Assembly: GCA_015178975.1 (NCBI GenBank)
Contig: WHVD01000052.1
Span: 62,001-126,000, forward strand
Reading direction: 5' to 3'
Source: Hysterangium stoloniferum
Taxonomy: Eukaryota > Basidiomycota > Agaricomycetes > Hysterangiales > Hysterangiaceae
Length of the DNA: 64,000 bases
Each line of letters begins with the position of its first letter. Position 1 is the stretch's first letter. Shown here one piece after another: positions 28,509 through 58,080 of the stretch. The position numbers and the translations under genes were made by a program. Under the pieces are notes generated by a model. That model was not told the origin of the DNA. It saw only the letters and a list, made by a program, of their open reading frames with translations, and did no database searches.

Positions 28509-28954
28509 CTTGTTTTATATTCATCTCAAGTGGACATTACATGGGTTTTCTCATTTGTCACACTTTCTTGTTAAAAAAGAAAAAGAAACTTATTATTTTT
28601 GATGATCTATTATAATAATGGGTCCTTCTTCTCCTGCCTCTACAAATTCCATGTGCAGCTCTTTTATGTATGTATTTCTTCTTTTCTCACAGACTTGTCC
28701 CCCTCCTCAGACTCCTCAGGGCTCCCGTGCTTGGACTCCCATAGTCCCGATCCCATACTGTAGTTCTTCAGGAACTCACAGAATACCCTGCAGGACTCCT
28801 GAAGACCTCCTGCCATTGTCTTCTGAACATTGTTGCTTTCCTCTAGCAACAGGTTCTGGGCCTCAATGCCCCCCACCATCTGCCCCAATACATCATTTAA
28901 GGCCTCTGGCCTTTCTGTGTTCCATCCAGTTTCCCAGGACCCAGACCCCATGGT

Positions 28955-29492
28955 GTTAGGGCAACACTACCAAGGCTACCAAACCACAAAGAAGGAAAGG
29001 GAGATAAGACAAGGATAAGGAGTAGAGGGATAGAAGTTCTAATGGCTTGAGAAGATCACACTGGCATTTAGTGGAAATCCTAAGAGATTAAAACTGGGAT
29101 CTAACTATGTACATCCTAGGATATTTATACAAAAAGGAAAACTAAAATAAAGTTTTTAAAGAACACTAAAATAAGGTTTAAACCTTATATCATTGTCACG
29201 TGTGTGTCATGTGTCCTTTGACATGTGACTGTGAATGATCATTCACATGATGCTGTGTGCAGGCATTTGCCATGCATGAACATTCATGTAACATTGTCAC
29301 AAATGTACATTCATAGATGTCATCACAGATGACAGCACACACCATCAACATCACAGACCAGCAATGTCACACACAGATGATGTCACATGTAGTAATCACA
29401 TACCATTGTGAACAGGTGATGTTTGTGCAATGTTAAATTATATAAAATGAATCAAAAAATAAAACTAAATATTAATAGATAGTGCCCTGACA
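28955..29492 (+). repeat. Solo LTR-like element, family G
   Basis: 538 bp with 10-bp near-inverted ends TGTTAGGGCA...TGCCCTGACA. It interrupts the antisense exon 3. The flanks (CATGG left, CAATT right) do not form a clean duplication. A fragment of its start recurs at 49,640. Orientation uncertain. Confidence 0.6.
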
Positions 29493-29538
29493 CAATTTCC
29501 TGTACCAAAGAGCACTGAGCCTTCAAGTGCACACAGGG

Positions 29539-32681: not shown

Positions 32682-33276
32682 TGTGAGAGGTATCCTGAAC
32701 TATACCCATACTTCCTTATTTTTACCACTACATCTCACATCCAGTATTATTTACATTAGTTTGAAGTTCCATGTACACCTATGGGTACGTAGACACTTGT
32801 GGGCATGCACACCATAGTTTCATGTACATTAGTGCACGTATGTAGTTGAAACTCAGACACTTTTCACCCCACAACCACAACTTACCCAGACACCTTTTCT
32901 AGTGTCCTGTAAGATGTGACTGGGGTATCATCTCAGCTGTCTTGAATGGCTTCCAACTTGAACTACCAACCACTTTTAAAGCTTTGTACTGAATAGTCGA
33001 AGCCCAAACCACAATTAGTTTCAACTTTCAACTCACATTACTCATTTAACCTTCTTCCCCTTCAGTTCATTACACCGTTAACTCACTCCTTAGAATCATA
33101 GTGTAAAAGTCGATTCTATTCTCTTTTAGTTGTCTCAGTTGTCTAACAACTACTAAGTTGACTAAAACTAGTTTATTATCTCTATTGTACTTTGATAGTT
33201 AATATACTTGTTGTGTCGTACCTAAATGGTCAATATTCTTTGTATATAGTGGTCAGAACGTCCACAACTCTTCACA
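32682..33276 (+). repeat. 3' LTR of element E
   Basis: 595 bp, TGTGAGAGG...CTTCACA; hairpin at 32,876-32,925; followed by CAGGG. Confidence 0.9.
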
Positions 33277-33920
33277 CAGGGCCAACAACCCAGGCCCTGA
33301 TTGGACTTCTGGAAGCAGTCCACATTCCAGTCATTACAACCAGAACACCATGGGTCATTTTTCAACTCCAGCCAGGTTGGAGGGAACCTCCACACCTTCT
33401 GTCATTTTTTAATCAGTATATCAATCCCCATGGACAACCTACTTACCTTTTGTTGAGGAGTCTCCAGCTCCCCCTTGGACTCAGACTTCACTTCTGCTTC
33501 TTTGCACTAATAGGAGACTGTCGGGAAGGCCTCTAAAAGAATAAATGTGTACCTACTTTACCCATGGCAATCACAGACTCCTTGTCACATTCCATGGCAA
33601 CTCAGATGGCCTCCTCTTCCCTTTTCCTCTTCTCCTGTCTGTAGCCAAAGCCACCCAGTACTACATTTCCAGCTCCTCCTCCCTGGCCCTCTTTTCCTCC
33701 TCCTCACATCACCACTGCTGTTCTTCATGCAGTATGTGTTGCCTGTGGAGGGCCTGGTTGGGGTGTGGTTTTCAAGGTGTGGGTTTTGGTCTCATTTGTG
33801 TCATTGATGGGGTATGAAAGAAGAAGAAATTTTATTATTTTCAATTTTTATATAGGCTCCCCATGTTTGACCCTTACCTTCCAGATCACTTGACATCTTG
33901 ACATATTTGTGTAACTGATG

Positions 33921-39065: not shown

Positions 39066-39566
39066 TGTATTATGACCGGAATTCCCACTGGACTCTGGGC
39101 ACTAACTTATATGCACCTGCACCCTATATGCACCAATTGTCAGTTTACTGGAATTCCCACTGGACTCCATATATCAGACTTGTCCATGTTCGACTTTATT
39201 ACATCGTATATCAGTCACCAGAATACCTGCCGGACTCCGTTCCTGTCTATGTCTGACCTCATCCCATGCATCAGTCACTGGACACCACTCAGGTCTCGTT
39301 TTAGTCAAATGACCTGTCATGATTTGGACCTCTCAACCCACAACCTCTCAACCCACAACCTCTCAACCCACAACCTCTCAACCCACAACCTCTCAACCCA
39401 CGACCCCTTGACCCATGAACTCCACCCAGGCTCCCTGGGATTCCCATCTCCCCATTTGAAATTGGACAACACGATCTCGTGAGGGTGCAGCTTATAAGCT
39501 GAAGCCAAGTCCTACCGGATCTCCTGCAGGTTTCTCCGGAAACCTTCCATGTATGCACCCTTAACA
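39066..39566 (+). repeat. 5' LTR of A1, internally deleted
   Basis: About 500 bp, start TGTATTATGACC (one base off the usual TGTTATGACC), end CCCTTAACA. It lacks the segment equivalent to 56,185-56,530 of the 3' LTR, including the TATA box and priming block, so this copy has no promoter. Carries the 15-bp minisatellite in about five copies (39,329-39,405). Confidence 0.85.
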
Positions 39567-53741: not shown

Positions 53742-54575
53742 TCGGGAAATCCTTGGACATGAAACTACATTTCACATCCAGACATCACCTTCCAGGTGAT
53801 GGAGAAACTGAACACATCAATCAGACATTGGAACAATACCTCCATGTATATTGCAATTATTAACAGGACAATTGGAAATCCTTATTACCACTTGCAGAAT
53901 TTGCTTACAACAATGCACCCTCGGCCACATAAAGGAGATAATCCAAATATTACAGTACATCCAGAATGAAATCTCGCCTCCACCCATGCTCAAGAGTTCA
54001 CCACAGACCTCCATGAGCTCCACAAGGAACTCCGGACTGCAATAAAGTCCGCCAAAGAGCAATATCAACATTCAGCAGACAAACATCAGATTCCACCACC
54101 CAACTTCAAGATTGGCAATCATGTTTTTGTCAAAGCTCATTTCTTTTGGACTACCCGTCCATCAAAAAAGCTTGCTGAAAAATATTTAGGTCTGTTTGAA
54201 ATAATTGCACAAGTAGGTTCAGTTTCTTGGACCCTACAGCTTCCAGATAGTATGCACGTGGTACACCCGGTATTTCATGTTTCTATGTTAGAACCTTGTA
54301 CTGCTAACACTATCCCAGATCATGTGCAATCTCCGCCTCCTCCGGTCATTATTGACAGAGAACCTGAGTTTGAAATCTCACAAATTTTAGATTTGAAAAT
54401 CGACAAGAATCAATGCACTTGTAAACTGCTTTACTTAGTCAAGTGGGTGGGTTACGAGGGCACTGATGAAGAAACTTCATAGATTTTGGCCACAGAACTT
54501 CATAATGCCATGGAAATCATTACTGACTTTCACACAGCTTACCTGCTCAAACCCGGACCACTATCTTCTCTCTGA
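53742..54575 (+). pseudogene. pol: Gypsy A1 integrase end and chromodomain
   Basis: Continues A1 pol after element C: LDMKLHFTS...GDGETEHINQTLEQYL (53,750-53,845), NWKSLLPLAEFAYNNAPS (53,870-53,925), a deletion, then VHPVFHVSMLEPC (54,258) and chromodomain EFEISQILDLKID, LLYLVKWVGYEGTDEETS, stop TAG at 54,480 in place of Trp TGG. End TGA at 54,573-54,575. Confidence 0.88.
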
Positions 54576-54769
54576 CCGCACTCCACGGACCCCACATTAC
54601 ATTTGGACTCATTCTCATTATTCCCTGTCACCCTATGTCTCTCTTTGCTTTTGCAGGTTCTGACATGTTTTCAAGTCCTTAGGCAGATTTTCCATGGACT
54701 TTGATTCTTATGTTTTTTCACATTTTACTTTTATTTTCAAAAAGAATTATTAAACTTTTATTATATTCT

Positions 54770-55706
54770 TCAATCTACATTTGTGGGGCTATGCTTCTGC
54801 CCAACTTCAGCCATCTCCTGAGGGAGCTCTGCTCCCTCTGCAGGCACCCCATCCTCATCCGAACTGGCATCCTCGGAACTCCTGACCTGCAGCTCTTCAT
54901 AAATGTAGCTGCTGAACTCCGCCAGGAACTTCCAAAACTCTGAGCAGCACCCATGGAGTTCATTCACCACTACTATTTGTACCTTGTTGCTCTTCCTAAG
55001 CAACTCATTTTGGGCCTCTATGCCCTCAGCAATCCATCCCAAAATATCATCCAAACCCGAAAACCCATCCGACCCACTCATTTCCCATGCCACGGACCCT
55101 GTGGGCTGCTCATGCACAAGTGAGCACCTCACTTTGAGTTTCACGCACTGAAAGCACCCCAGTCCCTGCCCTGACTTTCGATTGCAATCTGTGTTCCGGT
55201 CATTACAACCGGAACACCACAGGTCATTCCATGTTGGTAGGCAGACTGGTGCCACTTTCCTTGCCTTCTGTTGATGTGGTTAGTTCCCGAGAATGCCCAT
55301 GGACCTGAGACTTACCTTTTGGGGGTTCTCCAGCTCCCCCTTGGACTCAGACTCAACCTCTGTCACCTTGTACTGAAAATGACAAGTCAGTTAAGTCATC
55401 ATGTTGTAACTACAGGAGTTACTTTGCCCATGGCAACTGCAGCCCTATCCGCAGCCACCCTGGATTTCTCTGCAGCAACCTGCGCAGCCTCCTCCTCATC
55501 CTTCTTCCTCTGCTCCTCAGCCGCTTTCTCTGCCGCCAATGCCGCCTGGTATTCTTTGTCCAAGGCCTCCTCTCTGCCTCCTCTTGCTGTTGATGCTGTT
55601 CCTCCCACTGCACTAAGATTTGGGCAGCAGTGAGAGGTGCCCAGTATTGGTTGCCCATGAGGGCCGAGCAGTTGGCATTGGTTTTCAGTGTTGGCTTTGG
55701 TCCCAT
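54770..55706 (-). CDS. Antisense Zn(II)2Cys6-type/coiled-coil protein carried by Gypsy A1
   Basis: Transcribed against pol, between the chromodomain and the 3' LTR. Exon 1 runs 55,706-55,423 (MGPKP..., a PLTAAQ block, then an Ala/Glu/Lys coiled coil; one frameshift near 55,580 in this copy). Intron 50 nt (55,422-55,373, GTAACT...TCAG), exon 2 55,372-55,316 (19 codons, acidic), intron 48 nt (55,315-55,268, GTAAGT...ACAG), exon 3 55,267-54,770 (165 codons plus stop). Exon 3 has W-C-S-G-C and overall spacing C-x2-C-x6-C-x9-C-x2-C-x6-C, that of fungal binuclear zinc-cluster DNA-binding domains, followed by a region with G-I-E-A-Q-N and an acidic tail. Minus-strand TATA box TATATAAAAAA at 55,752-55,764. 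Role unknown; a DNA-binding regulator or targeting factor of the element is one possibility. Confidence 0.75.
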
Positions 55707-55751
55707 ATTGATGATGGGGGTAATAAAAAAGAAGAAAATTCATTTTTTCAA

Positions 55752-55764
55752 TTTTTTATATAGG
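55752..55764 (-). promoter_or_regulatory. TATA box of the antisense gene (A1)
   Basis: CCTATATAAAAA-type sequence on the minus strand, about 50 bp before the antisense ATG. Conserved at 33,845-33,856 (A2) and 57,030-57,043 (A3), with an equivalent at 53,082-53,094 in family C. Confidence 0.65.
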
Positions 55765-56356
55765 CTTGTCGCATTTGAACCTTACCTTCCAGATCATGTG
55801 ACTTTATGACACATACGTATAACCGACATGACTTTTGACACATGCGCATAGCCGACAAAAACCTTATCAAGGTCTAGAGCCTCTTTGTGACTTCGGCATA
55901 AAGGGAGGGTACTGTTATGACCAGAATTCCCACCGGACTCCAGGCACTAACTTATACGCACCCACACCCTATCACACCAATTGTCAGTTTACCAGAATTC
56001 CCACCAGACTCTGTACATCAGACTTGTCCACATTCAACTTCATTACGTTGTGTATCAGTCACCAGAATACCCGCCGGGTTCCATCCCTGTCTATGTCCAA
56101 CCTCAGTCACCAGACCCCACTCAGAAAACCTGTCATCCCTCTAACTGAGCCCCATTCCCGTTTTAGTCAAATGACCTGTCATGATTCAGACTCTGCTCCC
56201 ACTCTGTTCCCATTATGGTTTATGACCTGTCACAATTCGGACTCTGCTCCATTCTGTTCTGTTCCTAACACCAAGTTTGGTGTTTACTTATCTCATTTTA
56301 TGTTTGCTAGTTTCATTTTCATTATTACTGGATTTGGTATGTTATTCATTCCACAG

Positions 56357-56402
56357 TCTATATAGTCTGGCAGATGTTGTACATACAATCCAGTCAGAAA
56401 AT
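56357..56402 (+). promoter_or_regulatory. LTR promoter: TATA box and inferred transcription start (family A)
   Basis: CTATATAG at 56,358-56,365 lies about 33 bp before AGTCAGAAAAT (56,392), whose complement follows the 5' LTR. If the element self-primes, transcription should start at or close to 56,392. Confidence 0.65.
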
Positions 56403-56541
56403 CAGCTTAGATTCTCCCCAGTAATCTAGTACATTTTCCGCTCTAAACTCCTCTTTGAATTACACTGCTTTCACTAGTCGGAGCCCATAGGCTCCAATGC
56501 ATCTAACTCTCAACCTCTGACTTATTTATCTCGACTCCCTG

Positions 56542-56760
56542 ACCTCTCAACCCACAACCTCTCAACCCACAACCTCTCAACCCACAACCTCTCAACCCAC
56601 AACCTCTCAACCCACAACCTCTCAACCCACAACCTCTCACAACCTCTCAACCCACAACCTCTCAACCCACAACCTCTCAACCCACAACCTCTCAACCCAC
56701 AACCTCTCAACCCACAACCTCTCAACCCACAACCTCTCAACCCACAACCTCTCAACCCAT
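56542..56760. repeat. 15-bp minisatellite in the LTR (about 14 copies)
   Basis: Unit CCTCTCAACCCACAA. The 5' LTR has about five copies at 39,329-39,405; other family A LTRs have one or two degenerate units. Long minus-strand ORFs across it (Gly-Leu-Arg-Gly-Cys repeats) are artefacts of the 15-bp period. Confidence 0.95.
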
Positions 56761-56837
56761 GACCCCTTGACCCACGACCCCTTGACCCATGAACTCTGCC
56801 CAGACTCCCCGGGATTCCCATCTGCCCATTTGAAATT

Positions 56838-56886
56838 GGACAACACGATCTCGTGAGGGTGCAGCCTATAAGCTGAAGCCAAGTCC
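56838..56886 (+). ncRNA. Conserved two-stem RNA hairpin in the LTR (shared by families A, B, C, H and the 7455 copy)
   Basis: Outer stem GGAC/GTCC and inner stem CAGC/GCTG around a 6-nt loop (CTATAA), with AAGCC between stems on the 3' side. Equivalent positions: 7834-7881, 20,489-20,545, 46,650-46,704, 25,416-25,468 (minus). In family H the outer stem is GAGC/GCTC and the inner CAAC/GTTG, preserving pairing and loop length. Lies downstream of the inferred start, so it is in the RNA. A cis-acting RNA element of the retrotransposon; role unknown. Confidence 0.65.
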
Positions 56887-57134
56887 TACTGGATCTCCTG
56901 CGGGTTTTTCTGGAAACCTTCCATGTATGCACCCTTAACAGTATTTTCTGAGGCCTTAGAAGCTTTGTTGGTTACATGTATGTGTCAAGATGTCAGGTGA
57001 TCTGGAAGGAAAGGTTCAAATGTGAGAAGCCTATATAAAAAATTCAAAATAAAAATCTTTTTCTTCTTTCATATCCCCACCTTATCACTTTGTGACCAAA
57101 ACTGACATGATGAAAACCAACCACCAGCTCATCC

Positions 57135-58080
57135 ATGGGTTCTCCATATCAGGCACCTCTCACAGCTGCTCAATTGCTCAAGCAGCATGAAGAGCAACAT
57201 TTCCAGTGTAAAGAGGCCAAGAAGAAGGCCAGGGAAGAAGAGGCTGAGTTGGAGAGGGAGTACTAGGTGGCAGTGGCTGCTGAGAAAGAGGCAGAGGAGA
57301 AAAGGAAGAGAGATGAGGAGGTGGTGGCCAAAAAGGCAGAGGTGGAAAAGGAGCTTGAGTTGCAGCAGAGTGTGCCAATGCATCCACAGTGGCTGCAGGC
57401 AAAGTAAGTTATTTTATTTTACATTTGAAGTTTTATGTTGACCATCCCAATAGTGCAAAGTGGCTGAAGTTGAGTCAGAGTCTGATGGAGAACTGGGAAG
57501 CCCCTAAAAGGTACAGTAAGTGAGAAACCTGTGGAAAATCCTTTGACTAACTTATGTTTGACAGAAGACTCAGAGGAATGGTCCAGCCTGCCTGGAGACC
57601 AAGAACAACCTGTGGTGCTCTGGTTCTAATGACTGGAACACTGAATGTTACAGAAAGTCCGGTCAGGGCCTGGGATGCTGGCCTTACACACACTAGAAGG
57701 CCAAGTGTTCCCTTGTGGAAGATGCATCAGGGTGGTCTGGGTCATGGGAATCAGGAAGTCACATGGAGAAACCAGGAACCTTTGAGGAGGTACTGGGACA
57801 GATTGCCACAGGCATTGAGGCCCATAATGTCTTGTTGCAGGAGGACAACAATGTCAGAAAGACATTGGTGGGTGGTTTTCAAGAGTTCTGTGGACTCTTC
57901 CAGGAGTTCATGGAGAACTACAAGGGTTATGAATGGCCCGATGCCATGGATGGTGGTAGTTCCAAGGAGACTGAGGGGACTGAGGATACCGTGAGGTCCA
58001 CAGAGCTTGAAGAGCTTCGTGAAGAGTTTTTTGAGGCAGGGAAAAAGAAACCTAGCCTGCCAATTGAAATAGAAGAATAG
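57135..58080 (+). pseudogene. Antisense Zn2Cys6/coiled-coil gene of A3
   Basis: Opposite to the A3 pol. Exon 1 57,135-57,403 (MGSPYQAPLTAAQLLKQHEE..., coiled coil, one TAG at 57,264), intron 57,404-57,453 (GTAAGT...AATAG, 50 nt), exon 2 57,454-57,510 (57 nt, same length as in A1), intron 57,511-57,564 (GTACAG...GACAG), exon 3 57,565-58,080. The cluster reads W-C-S-G-S...C...C-W-P-Y...C: two of six cysteines are replaced and a stop follows H, so this copy is decayed. The C-terminal 122 codons are open, with LGQIATGIEAHNVLLQEDNN, alignable with A1 and A2. TATA box at 57,030-57,043. Confidence 0.75.

Follow-up and report, generated by a model that had tools for sequence, protein, structure and literature searches.

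The locus analyzed here raises the question of what a gene lying on the strand opposite to pol does in a retrotransposon of Hysterangium stoloniferum, an agaricomycete termed ectomycorrhizal in PMC7550596. In reviews, as far as their available text goes, the role of the antisense accessory genes of LTR elements is described as not known. This one genome offers many open and decayed variants of such a gene, with a protein under selection and with conserved splice and promoter signals, and the pattern of divergence among these variants suggests testable reasons for keeping an antisense accessory gene.

Anatomy of the antisense gene and its host element

The analyzed window comprises 64,000 bases (positions 62001-126000 of contig C464) of a genome of 111.1 Mb in 554 contigs, and it contains a chromodomain Ty3/Gypsy element with a three-exon gene on the minus strand at 54770-55706, between pol and the 3' LTR, as the first-pass annotation of this DNA had proposed. 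A TATA-type box (TATATAAA, 55755-55762, minus strand) lies 56 nt upstream of the antisense ATG at 55706. Exon 1 (55423-55706, 284 nt) encodes a charged, Ala/Glu/Arg/Lys-rich segment of helix type, for which the earlier term coiled coil was judged from composition alone. It is followed on the same strand by intron 1 (55373-55422, 50 nt), which runs from GT to CAG with a branch-site-like ACTGAC, by exon 2 (55316-55372, 57 nt, 19 codons), by intron 2 (55268-55315, 48 nt, again GT to CAG), and by exon 3 (54770-55267, 165 codons), which closes with a stop codon at 54772-54770. An AATAAA at 54757-54762 (minus strand), 3' of the stop, is the putative polyadenylation signal. Exon 3 encodes a Lys/Arg patch, a six-cysteine motif, a helix-type segment and an acidic tail, and the spacing of its cysteines is exactly the C-x2-C-x6-C-x9-C-x2-C-x6-C first reported. 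The window copy is damaged: the length of exon 1 is not divisible by three and the frame changes near 55570, so this copy is incapable of encoding the whole protein.

On the plus strand, the C-terminal part of the host pol (53970-54482) comprises an SH3_Tf2-1 domain and a partial chromodomain, in which positions 1-28 of the 53 in the Chromo profile are matched before an early stop at 54480-54482; the domain check in the window covered this C-terminus adjoining the gene. A polypurine tract (55899-55912, plus strand) precedes the 3' LTR (55913-56940, plus strand), which runs from TGTTATGACC to TTAACA. The window LTRs at 39070 and 55915 were considered as one pair, which their non-CpG divergence of 0.25 rules out. 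LTRs in the window contain 15-nt tandem repeats (ACCTCTCAACCCACA) at 39298-39455 and 56497-56829, with differing unit numbers. The bases that follow the 3' LTR at 56941-56951 are those found after 5' LTRs (GTATTTTCTGA), and beyond them lies an inverted copy of the promoter side of the antisense gene, which indicates that another element has been joined or rearranged at this point.

The same gene recurs within the window in an inverted element (copy A3, 57117-58074, plus strand), where exon 1 extends to 57403, intron 1 spans 57404-57453, exon 2 57454-57510 and intron 2 57511-57564, and exon 3 begins at 57565. Stops interrupt its exons, and its exon 3 has 39% identity to that of an intact copy, L067. 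The lengths first given for A1 and A3, 57 nt for exon 2 and 50 nt for intron 1, both hold. A partial third copy (A4, 33276-33903, minus strand) retains the promoter, exon 2 and the beginning of exon 3, in which the first five of the six cysteines are present; 28679-29535 may be its remainder.

A young, intact counterpart is found elsewhere in the genome. The LTRs of this element (L067+L068) are identical over 821 of 821 bp and a 5-bp target duplication, CAGCT, lies on both sides. Its full domain set consists of gag, with a sub-threshold match to a CCHC knuckle, and a pol with protease, reverse transcriptase, RNase H, integrase and chromodomain, which together with the LTRs identifies it as a chromodomain Ty3/Gypsy element; the polypurine tract has the same location as in the window. 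The antisense gene of this very young copy is intact, with 294 codons: an exon 1 of 327 nt, an intron of 49, an exon 2 of 57 nt and a second intron of 49 precede exon 3, both introns are in phase 0, and the gene is bracketed by TATATAAA upstream and AATAAA downstream. Among the best 150 of 1340 candidates that were scored, at least 19 copies including L067 encode an identical exon 3 protein, and exon 3 is stop-free in 110 of the 150. Several of the youngest copies lie less than 2.5 kb from contig ends (C103, C16, C33, C25, C545 and C1), probably because identical repeats break the assembly.

Genome-wide recurrence and purifying selection

Three genome scans yielded 856, 1100 and 1340 first-look candidates, and scoring covered the best 40, 150 and 150 of them, respectively. 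Fifty distinct copies were fetched and 48 could be evaluated for gene structure. The ATG is retained in 46 of these 48, the four splice dinucleotides in 46, 47, 48 and 47, and exon 2 measures 57 nt in 44. The exact eight bases TATATAAA are present in 38 of 48 copies, with a per-base retention of 0.90-1.00 over 45 copies. Since this structure recurs genome-wide, the antisense gene model is not a product of chance. Decay is nevertheless widespread. An open exon 3 of at least 150 codons remains in 24 or more of the 48 copies (the segments of L007 and L023 end before the stop yet are open). Exon 1 is more decayed, with only 10 of 45 copies free of stops, and a script scored the whole gene as intact in only two of the 48 evaluable copies; L007, open for 176 codons, misses intactness solely because its segment ends before the stop. 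Many of the exon 1 stops in copies L001-L066 look CpG-type by eye. Among annotated host gene models, P0001 and P0002 track parts of the antisense gene, and P0002 includes the join of exons 1 and 2.

The gene is a regular companion of pol. When the first 99 of the best 150 pol matches were compared with part of the 150 exon 3 matches and six more, exon 3 was found on the opposite strand, 211-235 bp downstream of pol, in at least 87 of the 99. This fixed distance refutes a recent capture by a few copies, which is also countered by the presence of exon 3 in divergent types near L067, L069 and A3. A candidate for an element without the gene (C116, one of nine pol matches lacking a listed exon 3) carries exon 3 after all, at 98.7% identity over 701 bases and with frameshifts.

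Selection was analyzed in 45 of the 50 distinct copies, a set chosen by likeness to old copies; two partial copies (L053, L057), a near-duplicate (L030) and two copies with large insertions (L046, L047) were dropped. CpG-type transitions were set aside in the rates, since in the C366 copy (L031, L032) 53 of the 87 differences from one LTR to the other are of this kind. The remaining rates at first, second and third codon positions are 0.080, 0.086 and 0.229 in exon 1, 0.039, 0.021 and 0.177 in exon 2, and 0.074, 0.058 and 0.210 in exon 3, so that third positions outpace first and second positions by factors of 2.7 to 8.5 across the three exons. The introns (0.168-0.194) and the 3' UTR evolve about as fast as third positions, and the rate is 0.08 in the 110 bases upstream of the ATG.

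The first-pass annotation had staked the gene on purifying selection and cysteine conservation across copies, and both are found. Without CpG transitions, omega is 0.26 in exon 1, 0.14 in exon 2 and 0.25 in exon 3, and 0.14 in the cysteine region, compared with control values of 1.5 and 1.8 in the shifted frames of exon 3, 0.9 in intron 1 and 1.4 in the 3' UTR. Conservation is 97% for the cysteines and 75% for the other residues, and 40 of the 45 copies have all six in the spacing of the Zn2Cys6 class (PF00172). In 38 copies, omega is 0.255 for the antisense gene and 0.235 for the pol C-terminus, and the antisense gene is therefore as constrained as the end of pol. Furthermore, intron 1 conserves GTAAGT, an ACTGAC branch site and CAG amid otherwise variable sequence, and intron 2 retains GT, an ACTRAC-like site and CAG across the 45 copies. 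The antisense frame is thus under purifying selection, and the gene is real.

A zinc-cluster-like protein and its counterparts

The predicted protein consists, in order, of a charged helix-type segment, a basic patch (KKARK, identified by eye) at the join of exons 2 and 3, the six cysteines, a second helix-type segment and an acidic tail. It had been assigned to the Zn2Cys6 type, and the part of this assignment that stands is the cysteine spacing, which is right and conserved. In a search against Zn2Cys6 profiles, however, every scanned copy scores below the Pfam cut-off of PF00172 (Zn_clus), the best (L012) reaching 20.3 bits against 21. At E<=1, 8 of 15 A1 members match PF00172 (best 6e-4), and no other family matches as many; these matches cover part of the profile where the range is shown, and the profile scan gave no match to PF00172 for L069 and P0001. 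Because the scores stay under the cut-off, we refer to the protein as zinc-cluster-like rather than as a member of the family, and suggest tentatively from its sequence that it may bind zinc and DNA. The protein shares the cysteine spacing and the nearby basic and acidic segments with fungal Zn2Cys6 proteins; it differs from them in its sub-cut-off score and in the unusual placing of its basic residues, which belong to the cluster's second half.

Relatives are scarce. Protein searches, by a method that requires shared exact words, found none outside Hysterangium at E<=1, the hits being three Hysterangium models plus two further proteins with E values of 2.5 and 5.3; repeat proteins are frequently masked from annotation. 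A sequence search of the PDB gave no clear relative (best E 0.49), and the predicted fold, computed from a three-row alignment, is poor, with a mean pLDDT of 43.5. Given that no relative outside the species appears at E<=1, it is from layout that we propose a regulatory role.

A fungal counterpart, which the first-pass annotation had held not to be described, does exist: Boty, a chromodomain element of Botrytis cinerea, carries the antisense gene brtn (Zhao et al. 2011, via PMC7264820, PMC8365987 and PMC4227169). Boty differs in its ascomycete host, and the comparison is one of descriptions, in which, to the extent available, neither introns nor a zinc cluster nor a divergence island is mentioned for brtn; protein searches with the Hysterangium antisense product named no match from Botrytis. 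Among plant elements, Grande of maize carries gene23, an antisense gene between pol and the 3' LTR with its own promoter and a nuclear protein, and RIRE2 and Retand have antisense genes in the same site, the Retand ORFs having TRP28 and the Retand protein being thought to bind DNA. The Hysterangium gene resembles these three in its position and differs from them in its six-cysteine motif, which does not figure in the accessible descriptions of the plant genes; the TRP28 domain of Retand (PF04195) has no match in any scanned copy, which places the protein outside that family. An analogy of working alone is offered by HBZ of HTLV-1, a nuclear protein from an antisense-strand gene; an HTLV antisense promoter is described as located in the 3' LTR. 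HBZ is a spliced bZIP protein of a retrovirus. By analogy, the action of the Hysterangium protein would most likely be comparable to that of the Grande gene23 protein or of spliced, antisense HBZ.

A literature search, with thin coverage of subscription journals, found no antisense or zinc-cluster gene in such elements from fungi, basidiomycetes included, beyond Boty, and no case of hypervariable parts in them. The features that look new are the introns and the six-cysteine domain, and most of all a silent divergence 3.4 times that of pol together with conflicting trees. The first-pass annotation is thus partly supported: it was right on anatomy and claimed too much on novelty, and the pattern of variation adds to the interest of the locus.

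Divergence of the gene from its backbone and possible explanations

Divergence along the element is uneven. In 31 copies, non-CpG divergence stays at 0.03-0.06 through pol and at 0.044 in the bases directly past it, rises to 0.23 in the antisense 3' UTR, measures 0.09-0.17 within the gene, drops to 0.035 in the stretch from promoter to LTR, and is 0.04-0.12 in the LTR itself, delimiting an island (positions 5790-6880 of L067) coextensive with the inferred antisense transcription unit. Median divergence at silent and non-coding sites is 0.065 at pol third positions, 0.069 in the LTR and 0.224 in the antisense gene, the gene/pol ratio is 3.44 (3.10-3.82 when copies are resampled), and in all 461 pairs from the 31 copies with enough sites the gene is more divergent than pol. 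The copies had been picked by similarity of the antisense gene, a choice that should work against an excess of gene divergence. Moreover, in the 29 copies used for tree tests, pol and the antisense gene each reject the topology of the other (AU p = 4.5e-6 and 1.5e-41), most nodes of the pol tree being weakly supported. In the old C366 copy, the divergence between the two LTRs, paired without a target-duplication check, is 0.044, so much of the pol divergence may postdate insertion, and the contrast between gene and pol before insertion would be larger still.

Independently of these loci, at least 26 pol matches share an identical 171-residue C-terminus; 24 of these 26 have a listed exon 3, whose proteins are 87-100% identical to that of L067. 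A second type of module, with a protein about 74% identical, stands beside a pol C-terminus 96% identical to that of L067. Taken together, these sequence comparisons suggest that the gene is a recombining module, with deep lineages placed on a young, shared backbone of pol and LTR.

The explanation that we consider somewhat probable is that the gene serves an active chromodomain Ty3/Gypsy element as an accessory gene, is transcribed, spliced and exchanged as a module, and has a nuclear regulator as its product. A TATA promoter of its own, located just internal to the 3' LTR, would drive transcription towards pol, and the transcript would be spliced twice to encode a protein of about 294 residues. 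Since it runs antisense to the genomic RNA, the gene would keep its introns through to reverse transcription, and new copies would inherit them. The protein would most likely be nuclear and regulate the expression or replication of its own element by binding zinc and nucleic acid, and elements would swap the gene as a module, giving deep gene lineages on a recently shared pol and LTR backbone.

Such deep lineages on a shared backbone fit selection favoring rare variants, which could arise, for example, if a variant that is common, or the double-stranded RNA it may form with genomic RNA, repressed its own kind. We put forward only tentatively, as a possibility on the doubtful side, that the gene is a swappable specificity cassette whose ancient variants are balanced by rarity and shuffled onto one gag-pol-LTR backbone, each repressing or silencing elements with the same variant. 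Were the module reading true, it would amount to an immunity-like or self-recognition-like system among retrotransposons.

The RNA rather than the protein might be the agent, with the antisense transcript pairing with genomic RNA, the duplex being diced, and diverged stretches escaping the small RNAs. The island is consistent with this proposal, in that its edges match the inferred antisense unit (0.044 past pol, 0.23 in the 3' UTR and 0.035 before the LTR) and variation is highest in third positions, introns and 3' UTR. The genome furthermore contains matches to the Piwi and Dicer_dimer families, as well as to DNA_methylase in two weak, partial places. However, deep lineages swapped whole would yield the same profile, and the strong constraint on the protein (omega 0.25, cysteines 97% kept) requires a protein function too; we regard this account as rather unlikely.

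We consider it similarly unlikely that the protein is a replication or import factor, such as a nucleic-acid chaperone or a particle or import helper, with a cysteine fold resembling a zinc knuckle. Conserved cysteines with a weak Zn_clus score, the basic patch at the exon 2-3 join and an exchange between elements like that of a structural accessory gene would all suit such a factor, but the gag of L067 already provides a possible CCHC knuckle, and the gene's own promoter and the acidic tail would better fit the nuclear regulator that we favor.

Less likely again is a mutation-rate effect or an alignment artefact, instead of module exchange, as the source of the island. In favor of such an effect, the gene of the youngest pair (L065/L067) shows more change (16 of 427 sites) than pol third positions (9 of 415) or the LTR (0.010). 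The BLAST projection may lose diverged parts of the LTR, and re-alignment of 12 copies with MAFFT, noisy in the outer parts, raises outer pol mostly to 0.06-0.17 and the LTR to 0.07-0.30. The contrast is also smaller, about two to three, when C366 and L067 are compared over the whole element, with third-position divergences of 0.12 in gag, 0.13 in pol (a figure that includes a misaligned-looking block at 0.24-0.40) and 0.29 in the gene, and 0.09 in the LTR. The MAFFT alignment nevertheless preserves the dips on both sides of the gene, at 0.040-0.045 and 0.042-0.047 against 0.085-0.181 within it, and the mutual rejection of the two topologies also argues against a rate effect. In addition, the ratio of gene to pol is not constant: L006/L018 and L018/L056 have similar pol divergence (9 of 244 and 14 of 409) and differ fivefold in the gene (19 of 406 and 100 of 405; Fisher p = 8.6e-17), which a plain rate difference does not fit.

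It is highly improbable that a sense-strand gene, or composition, gave rise to the antisense frame as a by-product. Of the three sense frames of exon 3 (omega 1.15, 0.36 and 2.43), the mirror frame scores low, at 0.36, and shares third positions with the antisense frame; the sense frames of exon 1 are stop-free in 31, 19 and 4 of 45 copies against 10 for the antisense frame. Sense-strand coding is ruled out mainly by third positions alone, which favor antisense over mirror sense in exon 3 (0.38 against 0.70) and exon 1 (0.34 against 0.97), and by the stop counts of exon 3, where 28 of 45 copies are stop-free in the antisense frame and 3, 1 and 0 in the three sense frames. The splice and branch signals that are conserved, examined on the antisense strand, likewise belong to the antisense model.
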